Source: Desulfomicrobium macestii (GTDB lineage Bacteria; Desulfobacterota; Desulfovibrionia; Desulfovibrionales; Desulfomicrobiaceae). From it: 64,000 nt of DNA. Location of the stretch: assembly GCF_014873765.1 (NCBI RefSeq), contig NZ_JADBGG010000003.1, positions 117,834 through 181,833 of the forward strand. Reading direction: 5' to 3'. Under the pieces are notes generated by a model. The model worked only from the letters and a program-made list of their open reading frames with translations. It was not told the origin of the DNA and searched no databases. Positions 24,252 through 26,364 of the stretch are shown here, piece by piece. Position numbers and translations under genes: made by a program. The first letter of the stretch is position 1, and each line of letters starts with the position of its first letter.

Positions 24252-25685
24252 CTATGAGTGATTGGGTTGCCCGATCCAGTCTTCCAAGGTCACGGGTTCC
24301 GAGAGGCATTGATACCTCGGTTCCCAGTCGCACCTGGCCTTGATCTCGGCGCCATGCTGGATGATGGAAATGGGACGGTCCGAGCTGACCACGACCAGGA
24401 TGACCTGATTGTGTTCGGCCGTGAACCTGAGGGCGGAGTTGTATCTGGCTCCACGGGCGCGGTTTTCTCCGGCTACCGCGCGGCCATCGAGCAGGGACGC
24501 GAATGCGTGCAGCTTGAGGTACATCATGTCGATGTGCAGCGCCCCGTCCACCTTGGCCAGCGAGGTCGCCAGATCAAGGTCCATGTGGCGCTTCAGATCA
24601 AGCGGCGTTTCCAGATGCTGCCCCGAGATGTTGGCCAGTGGGCTTCCGAAGTCGAGCACCAGGGCGCAGCCGTGTTTTCTTTCCTGGGCGCTGCGCACCA
24701 GCGTGCTGACCACCTTCATGATGGTGTAGAGCTTGCTCGAATCAAGGTTCAGTTCAAGCAGCACCTCTTCCAGCTGTACCAGATTGGCTTGTCTGGTGGA
24801 GGAGTGGAACCCGCCGTCGGAAAAGCTGCATATGGTTTCGTCCTGGACCTTGATGAAGCCATGATTCCCGCGATATTCCGCGGTCACGGAAAAGTCCGGC
24901 ATCCGGCCCGTGCCGATGCCGATGATTTTCTGTCCGTTGCTGACCAGTTTGTGCTTGTTACCTTCCACGGCCTGCAGGAGCTTTCGGGTGTGCTTGAAAT
25001 CCTTCATGGCAGGTCTTTCGAAATCGCCGAAGGTGGCCAGATAATGGATTCGGTGCACTTGAGATGGCTCGACGAAAATGAGATCGCCAAAGGCCCATTT
25101 GCCTTCTTCCTGGGTCTTCGAAATGTTCAGGACCGAGTCCAGTATGGGGTAGATGCGCAACCGCGTGTCCGGGCCCAGGCTCAGATTGCGCATGTCGACG
25201 ATGTGATCCCGGACGGCGTGGGTCGCAAAATTTTGCAGTACATATCCCGACGTCTCAAGGTCCGTGATGCTTTTTGTTCCCAGATCCTGGGACAGGAGTC
25301 TGCATGCGTATTCCAGCCAGCGCTGCGTGGGACCGGTTGAACACATGTCCACATGGTGCTCACTGAACCATGTCTGGTAGAACATGTTGTGAAAATGACC
25401 ACCATGGGCGATTATTCCAGCCAGTTCCGGGTTGTCGAACTGTCCTGGGTCATGCTCTCCATCCCCGGAAGGGTCCTGCATCCATTGTCCATGCCTGAGG
25501 TAGAGTTCCTCCAGGCGCGGCTCGTGTCCGCGCAGCAGATCACAGGGGTCATAGATGCGGAGCGGGCTGTTCCTGTTCAATGCATAAATCAGCGCGGCCC
25601 GGCTTGGCCCCGAGAACCTGCCCAGTCCATTGCACAAACCATCGTGAATCTGGTCGATGCATTTGATCAAAAACAGTTCTTCCAT
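24252..25685 (-). CDS. Putative diadenylate cyclase (DisA_N/DAC-like C-terminal domain, unknown N-terminal domain)
   Basis: In this 477-residue protein, about residues 340-450 resemble the DAC domain that makes cyclic di-AMP. ALVLDFGSPL is followed by LAKVDGALHID (DGA motif, Asp380-Ala382), then GARYNSAL (about 412-418) where canonical enzymes have GTRHRAA, and VILVVVSSDRPISII. The RHR motif is therefore changed to RYN, so activity is uncertain. The N-terminal 330 residues match no domain I recognise; they include GGHFHNMFYQTWFSEHH, rich in histidine. An RBS (CCGGAAG) precedes the ATG. The gene is monocistronic and convergent with glnD. The alternative is a catalytically dead, nucleotide-binding DAC relative. 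Confidence 0.7.
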   Translation of the reverse strand: MEELFLIKCIDQIHDGLCNGLGRFSGPSRAALIYALNRNSPLRIYDPCDLLRGHEPRLEELYLRHGQWMQDPSGDGEHDPGQFDNPELAGIIAHGGHFHNMFYQTWFSEHHVDMCSTGPTQRWLEYACRLLSQDLGTKSITDLETSGYVLQNFATHAVRDHIVDMRNLSLGPDTRLRIYPILDSVLNISKTQEEGKWAFGDLIFVEPSQVHRIHYLATFGDFERPAMKDFKHTRKLLQAVEGNKHKLVSNGQKIIGIGTGRMPDFSVTAEYRGNHGFIKVQDETICSFSDGGFHSSTRQANLVQLEEVLLELNLDSSKLYTIMKVVSTLVRSAQERKHGCALVLDFGSPLANISGQHLETPLDLKRHMDLDLATSLAKVDGALHIDMMYLKLHAFASLLDGRAVAGENRARGARYNSALRFTAEHNQVILVVVSSDRPISIIQHGAEIKARCDWEPRYQCLSEPVTLEDWIGQPNHS

Positions 25686-25815: not shown

Positions 25816-26364
25816 ATGCATGAAGTCAGTCTGAATCGCGTCATTACGGATTATCTCACCGGCCGGGAGATCATGGATACCACGTATGAGGACTTGCGGC
25901 AGGCTCTGGCCAAGCTGCTGGTTGAAGACAGGAAGTATCCCCGTGAGAATATCCGCTCAAAATATGTCCTGGATTACTCGATAAACGGAGAGCCGCATTC
26001 GGTCGCCATCGATCTGGCGGTCTTTTCCCCTGCGGGTGAGCCGCTTTTGGCCCTGGTGTTCTGCCCCGGAGAGGTCGGAACCTTTGTGAGAGAGAGTGTC
26101 GCAGCGGCCCGCATTCATCTGCCGTCTCCCTTTCCGCTGGTCATCGTGACGGATTCGATGGAATTGCTGCTGGTGGAGACCAAGACCTCCGAGGTGATCG
26201 GGAGCGGCTTCAATGCAGTGCCCCGGTGGAGTGAGCTGCCAGGCCTCGCCCAGGCGCATCCTTGCCCATTGCCGGGTGAGGACCGGCTGGACAAGGAGCG
26301 CAGGATACTTGCCGCCTATGACGGTCTGGGCGGGCCTTGCTGCGGCAGTGAATGCGGCATCTAG
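25816..26364 (+). CDS. Type I restriction R-subunit N-terminal-like domain protein (HSDR_N_2), stand-alone
   Basis: The 182-residue protein resembles the small HsdR N-terminal nuclease-like domain proteins: EDLRQALAKLLVEDRKYPRENI, then HSVAIDLAVFSPAGEPLLAL and RESVAAARIHLP. The usual PD-(D/E)xK signature has the Asp (AIDLAV), but the following strand reads LVFCPG instead of an E-x-K, so nuclease activity is doubtful. It ends in PCCGSECG, a cysteine-rich tail. There are no hsdM or hsdS genes nearby, so this is not a type I restriction system. The ATG has AGGAGG six bases upstream. Its last 4 nt overlap the convergent hldA stop. Confidence 0.72.
   Translation: MHEVSLNRVITDYLTGREIMDTTYEDLRQALAKLLVEDRKYPRENIRSKYVLDYSINGEPHSVAIDLAVFSPAGEPLLALVFCPGEVGTFVRESVAAARIHLPSPFPLVIVTDSMELLLVETKTSEVIGSGFNAVPRWSELPGLAQAHPCPLPGEDRLDKERRILAAYDGLGGPCCGSECGI

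Follow-up and report, generated by a model that had tools for sequence, protein, structure and literature searches.

Gene and Domain Organization

The window, that is, the whole stretch of 64,000 nucleotides analyzed here, contains a gene for a 477-residue protein whose C-terminal part matches the diadenylate cyclase (DAC) family (Table 1). The gene starts with an ATG at 25685 and ends with a stop codon at 24252-24254 on the minus strand, and a Shine-Dalgarno-like GGAAG is located about 8 nt upstream of the ATG. An earlier reading of the same DNA (hereafter the first-pass annotation) had given this open reading frame the correct coordinates, to which the coding strand, minus, is added here. 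Promoter-like matches were seen near the gene, with no terminator matches there; neither result is informative.

Table 1. Coordinates of the DAC gene, its domains and motifs, and two genes nearby
Feature	Residues	Positions	Strand	Basis
DACND-DACNH-DAC gene	477 aa, stand-alone	24252..25685	minus	ORF and translation, Pfam
DACND, probable sensor domain	7-171	25173..25667	minus	PF21749, 207.8 bits, E 1e-61
DACNH, probable sensor domain	179-286	24828..25151	minus	PF21750, 112.8 bits, E 9e-33
DAC (diadenylate cyclase) domain	331-445	24351..24695	minus	PF02457, 43.9 bits, E 2e-11
DGA motif	380-382	24540..24548	minus	D and G in 48/48 family sequences, A in 47/48
RYN, at the RHR position	414-416	24438..24446	minus	R414 and N416 in 48/48 family sequences
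S-S-D, at the SEE position of canonical DACs	434-436	24378..24386	minus	S434 and D436 in 48/48
Small-protein gene		25816..26364	plus	HSDR_N_2 match
146-aa protein gene	146 aa	28329..28769	plus	

The Pfam search gave three domains in the order DACND, DACNH and DAC, all of them above the gathering cut-off (27 bits for each). The DAC match, obtained with the profile that the first-pass annotation had proposed for this purpose, is beyond chance. The same annotation had found no known domain in the first 330 residues; this view had to be abandoned, since DACND and DACNH lie there. The N-terminus thus comprises two named and described domains, which are probably sensors. Up to an E-value of 10, Pfam gave nothing further in the protein except DACNV (E 0.098). 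The DAC motif order proposed earlier was recovered in full, with LAKVDGALHID at residues 376-386, GARYNSAL at 412-419 and VVS...ISI at 432-442.

The DACND-DACNH-DAC architecture has already been described, and the window protein is one more member. Other such proteins agree with it in domain content and domain order, share about 50% full-length identity with it in the class and the phylum, and show no substantial difference from it. DAC architectures were reportedly reviewed by Galperin in J Bacteriol in 2023 (doi 10.1128/jb.00023-23). The canonical diadenylate cyclases (DisA, CdaA, CdaS and CdaM) share the DGA motif with the window protein, whereas their RHR motif is absent from it. DisA also differs in layout: its DAC domain is N-terminal and is followed by a linker and an HhH DNA-binding domain, while the DAC domain of the window protein is C-terminal and no HhH match was found in the protein.

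Genomic Neighborhood

The amtB-glnB-glnD genes are located on the strand opposite the DAC gene, and glnD and the DAC gene lie tail-to-tail with their ends 4 bp apart. Because of this arrangement, the two genes do not belong to one operon. The stretch is kept in Desulfomicrobium, and the adjacency to glnD in its loci speaks for the idea, raised in the first-pass annotation, that the protein is a nitrogen-status sensor working with amtB-glnB-glnD. In eleven loci from other genera, however, glnD adjacency was never observed: ten of them had no window gene beside the DAC gene, and the other one kept the par-side genes, not glnD. Over 52 loci there was no widely shared neighbor; true flanking-gene clusters covered at most 9 of the 52, and the larger clusters consisted of ORFs within or antisense to the DAC gene. 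We therefore regard the nitrogen-sensor explanation as very improbable. A nitrogen role, to which only synteny within the genus points, is unsupported.

The divergent neighbor of the DAC gene encodes a small protein with a match to HSDR_N_2, which resembles the N-terminus of the type I restriction R subunit. Among the loci examined, it stays beside the DAC gene in Desulfomicrobium and also in a second genus of the family. The gene for the 146-residue protein, which has no Pfam match, lies between parB and parA on the opposite strand, and is conserved with parB/parA in the family. In several genera (loci L046, L051, L054, L055, L119 and L120) a histidine kinase or chemoreceptor gene directly adjoins the DACND gene. 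These neighbors are on the same strand as the DACND gene in some cases, but their orientation is mixed, which is why no partnership with the DAC is proposed.

Predicted Fold of the DAC Domain

By sequence, the 477-residue protein had no real match in the PDB, and the family profile gave only a weak match to DacA (E 1). The DAC domain (residues 300-477) was modeled from ten sequences, including DACs from viral contigs; canonical CdaA relatives were also sought in viral contigs for the fold alignment, and none was found there. The best model had a pLDDT of 78.3 and a pTM of 0.78, and the remaining four models had a pLDDT of about 60. In the Foldseek search with the best model, the matches listed were all DAC structures (best E 2.8e-5). 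The VIA-align comparison with the PDB placed Mycoplasma DacM at the top with a Z-score of 8.8. The first 40 rows by Z were all DAC proteins, with Z-scores from 8.8 to 5.9, and the next unrelated proteins were thioredoxins at 2.5. The C-terminal domain is thus predicted to have the DAC fold. Since DAC structures were the top matches of the model in both searches, the fold gives no ground for rejecting the DAC assignment of the first-pass annotation, whose structural check had also covered the nucleotide pocket; the pocket was judged here from the invariance of its motifs.

Conservation and Selection at the RYN Site

As the first-pass annotation had noted, the RHR position is altered to RYN. In an alignment of 48 family sequences from the class (Desulfovibrionia), D380, G381, R411, G412, A413, R414, N416, S417, A418, R420, S434 and D436 were invariant. 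Position 415 was F in 32 sequences and Y in 16, and no other residue was seen, so that all 48 sequences read GAR[YF]N. The same holds for all 22 matches of the phylum search besides the window gene, 20 of which come from outside the class and one of which was already among the 48. Conservation is highest in the DAC domain, where 23% of the columns are invariant as compared with 10-13% in the sensor domains. Orthologues align along almost their entire length, with 41-96% identity. Within the genus, dN/dS was 0.06-0.08 over the whole gene and lower, 0.04-0.06, in the DAC part. As judged from these alignments, strong purifying selection acts on the changed RYN site, and it is unlikely that RYN is a sign of decay or a lesion.

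The R-x-N Clade

R-x-N DACs were also found in Bacillota, Bacteroidota, Planctomycetota and Pseudomonadota, and plasmid-borne DACs of Priestia, Dyadobacter, Citrobacter, Gluconobacter and Phycisphaera carry R-Y/F/L-N. When 90 DAC domains were placed in a tree (FastTree, midpoint rooting), one group with a support of 0.97 held all of the R[YFL]N sequences (73/73). Canonical CdaA (GTRHRAA) and the DACNV-type DACs fell outside this group. The residues DG, an LDG, RG-x-R-x-N and S-x-D were invariant over the clade samples. The invariance of R[YF]N, the single R-x-N clade and the dN/dS of 0.06-0.08 together indicate that RYN is no lesion and that selection maintains it as a hallmark of the clade. 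The alternatives of an isolated RHR-to-RYN change or lost catalysis, as envisaged in the first-pass annotation, are not supported, the motif being invariant in orthologues and common to a large clade including the DAC of the DS-2 system described below.

The DACNV-DAC proteins of the same phylum resemble the window protein in having a DAC domain with an N-terminal probable sensor domain, whereas they lie outside the R[YFL]N clade and it lies inside. They read RHR in L086-L092 and RHN, RHQ or KHN in L093-L097, the latter being further natural variants of the RHR motif. As the RHN and KHN sequences show, the third-letter change to N occurs also with H retained.

The DS-2 Phage-Defense DAC

DS-2 is a CBASS-linked phage-defense system with a DAC, and mutation of two predicted catalytic residues of this DAC abolished defense, according to the DefensePredictor paper (PMC13092281). 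The Citrobacter (P0004) and Gluconobacter DACs scored 804 and 712 bits, respectively, against DS2_3_antiphage (NCBIfam NF053872; equivalog cut-off 630 bits), and both adjoin genes for a patatin phospholipase and a nucleotidyltransferase. The E. coli DS-2 DAC (P0008), which was found in 18 of 5,426 genomes, reads RYN and has the same patatin/nucleotidyltransferase layout.

The window protein and the DS-2 DAC share homologous DACNH and DAC domains (NF053872, E 1e-21 over residues 182-442) and the R-x-N active-site motif. They differ in architecture, DACNG-DACNH-DAC in DS-2 as compared with DACND-DACNH-DAC in the window protein, and the window protein scores 76.9 bits against NF053872, under the cut-off. 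BLAST gave no match to patatin or CD-NTase within the window or the flanks of the 52 loci; no CBASS gene was found in these flanks, and PADLOC gave no match. Since the DS-2 DAC, itself an R-x-N protein, requires its predicted catalytic residues in the reported experiments (PMC13092281), an R-x-N site would seem to be functional in vivo. Such a site can matter in the cell; the DS-2 evidence is a phenotype, and speaks for function rather than for c-di-AMP synthesis in particular. In our literature search, no biochemical measurement of the product of an R-x-N DAC was found.

Coexistence with a Canonical Cyclase

DACND was found in 92 of 199 genomes of the class, with one copy each, and DACNH in 23 of 395 genomes sampled from the phylum. 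Of 198 class genomes, 195 had at least one match to PF02457; the genomes with DACND show two PF02457 matches in the class table. The DACND-type DAC is thus an accessory second DAC, present in about half of the sampled relatives besides the ordinary enzyme. This also applies to the window gene, since the same genome has its own canonical CdaA (G000:C42) with DGA and GTRHRAA. The first-pass annotation had held that c-di-AMP is little described in such bacteria. Our literature search agrees as far as experiments are concerned, whereas the genetic capacity is near universal.

The window protein resembles CdaA/DacA in its DAC fold (the modeled domain gave Z-scores of 7.3-8.5 with most CdaA structures) and in its DGA motif. 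CdaA, in contrast, has GTRHRAA in place of GARYNSA, a hydrophobic, membrane-type N-terminus in place of DACND-DACNH, and a PF02457 score of 145.3 bits as compared with 47.5 bits for the window protein in the same comparison. Possible partners of c-di-AMP in this genome are 15 TrkA_C and four DHHA1 domain matches. None of 7TM-7TMR_HD (PgpH), the c-di-AMP riboswitch and CdAMP_rec had a match in the genome.

Proposed Function

The window protein is probably a diadenylate cyclase that is accessory and gated by a signal, and whose active site is a clade-specific variant. DACND and DACNH would bind a cellular or environmental ligand and thereby may control the head-to-head meeting of two DAC domains. 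D380 of DGA and R414 of RYN would then bind two ATP molecules and join them into c-di-AMP, which would add to the pool made by CdaA and could act on targets such as RCK_C/TrkA_C transport proteins. The three Pfam domains above the cut-off, the DAC fold and the invariant motif residues favor this interpretation, as do the low dN/dS (0.06-0.08), the monophyletic R-x-N set including DS-2, and a genome context with a canonical CdaA and the 15 TrkA_C matches. Several facts count against it. Replacement of RHR by AAA abolishes the activity of canonical enzymes (PMC3328451; PMC4568413; PMC13022847), and two of the three RHR residues differ here; CdaA in principle already supplies c-di-AMP; and the genome gave no riboswitch, CdAMP_rec or PgpH match.

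The loss of activity in canonical RHR mutants would also fit another interpretation, in which the protein is a catalytically dead DAC turned receptor, whose conserved pocket binds CdaA-made c-di-AMP or ATP and relays this through DACNH/DACND. The second DAC match in genomes with a DACND-type gene, and the lack of a conserved neighbor that would use a separate product, point in the same direction. D380, R414 and the SxD motif are, however, invariant, N416 is never replaced, which would be unexpected for a relaxed site, and the DS-2 DAC with the same motif reportedly requires its predicted catalytic residues for defense. We therefore take a receptor to be rather unlikely, though it deserves consideration.

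It is also conceivable, but distinctly unlikely, that the protein is an active cyclase whose use of nucleotides is altered, the product of R-x-N DACs being some cyclic nucleotide different from c-di-AMP, or their substrate a different nucleotide. The swap of H-R to aromatic-N across the clade, the clade-specific invariants in the nucleotide domain (LDG 399-401, R409/R411, and SxD for SEE) and the pairing of an R-x-N DAC with a separate CD-NTase cyclase in DS-2 would be in line with this. The RHR residues of known DACs contact the ligand phosphates and do not choose the base, however, so that the swap need not alter base choice. In a broader form, the R-x-N DACs, both DACND- and DACNG-type, housekeeping as well as phage-defense, would be a class with a reorganized site whose product or substrate is not c-di-AMP. 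We give this only a small probability; if true, close to half of the Desulfovibrionales relatives sampled would use c-di-AMP together with another, as yet undescribed nucleotide signal.

The window protein has an active site in common with a validated phage-defense DAC. Culturable sulfate reducers that carry both a canonical CdaA and one chromosomal copy of an R-x-N DAC offer a test case of whether RHR is essential in diadenylate cyclases, which would also bear on the product of the DS-2 DAC.

R-x-N DACs in Viral Contigs

The 477-residue protein matched just two plasmid records and none from phages. R-x-N DACs were seen in IMG/VR viral contigs (L111, L112, L113, L114 and L117). The DAC of L114 shows 51% identity to the DS-2 DAC, and that of L112 sits in an ORF of 865 residues, possibly a fusion.
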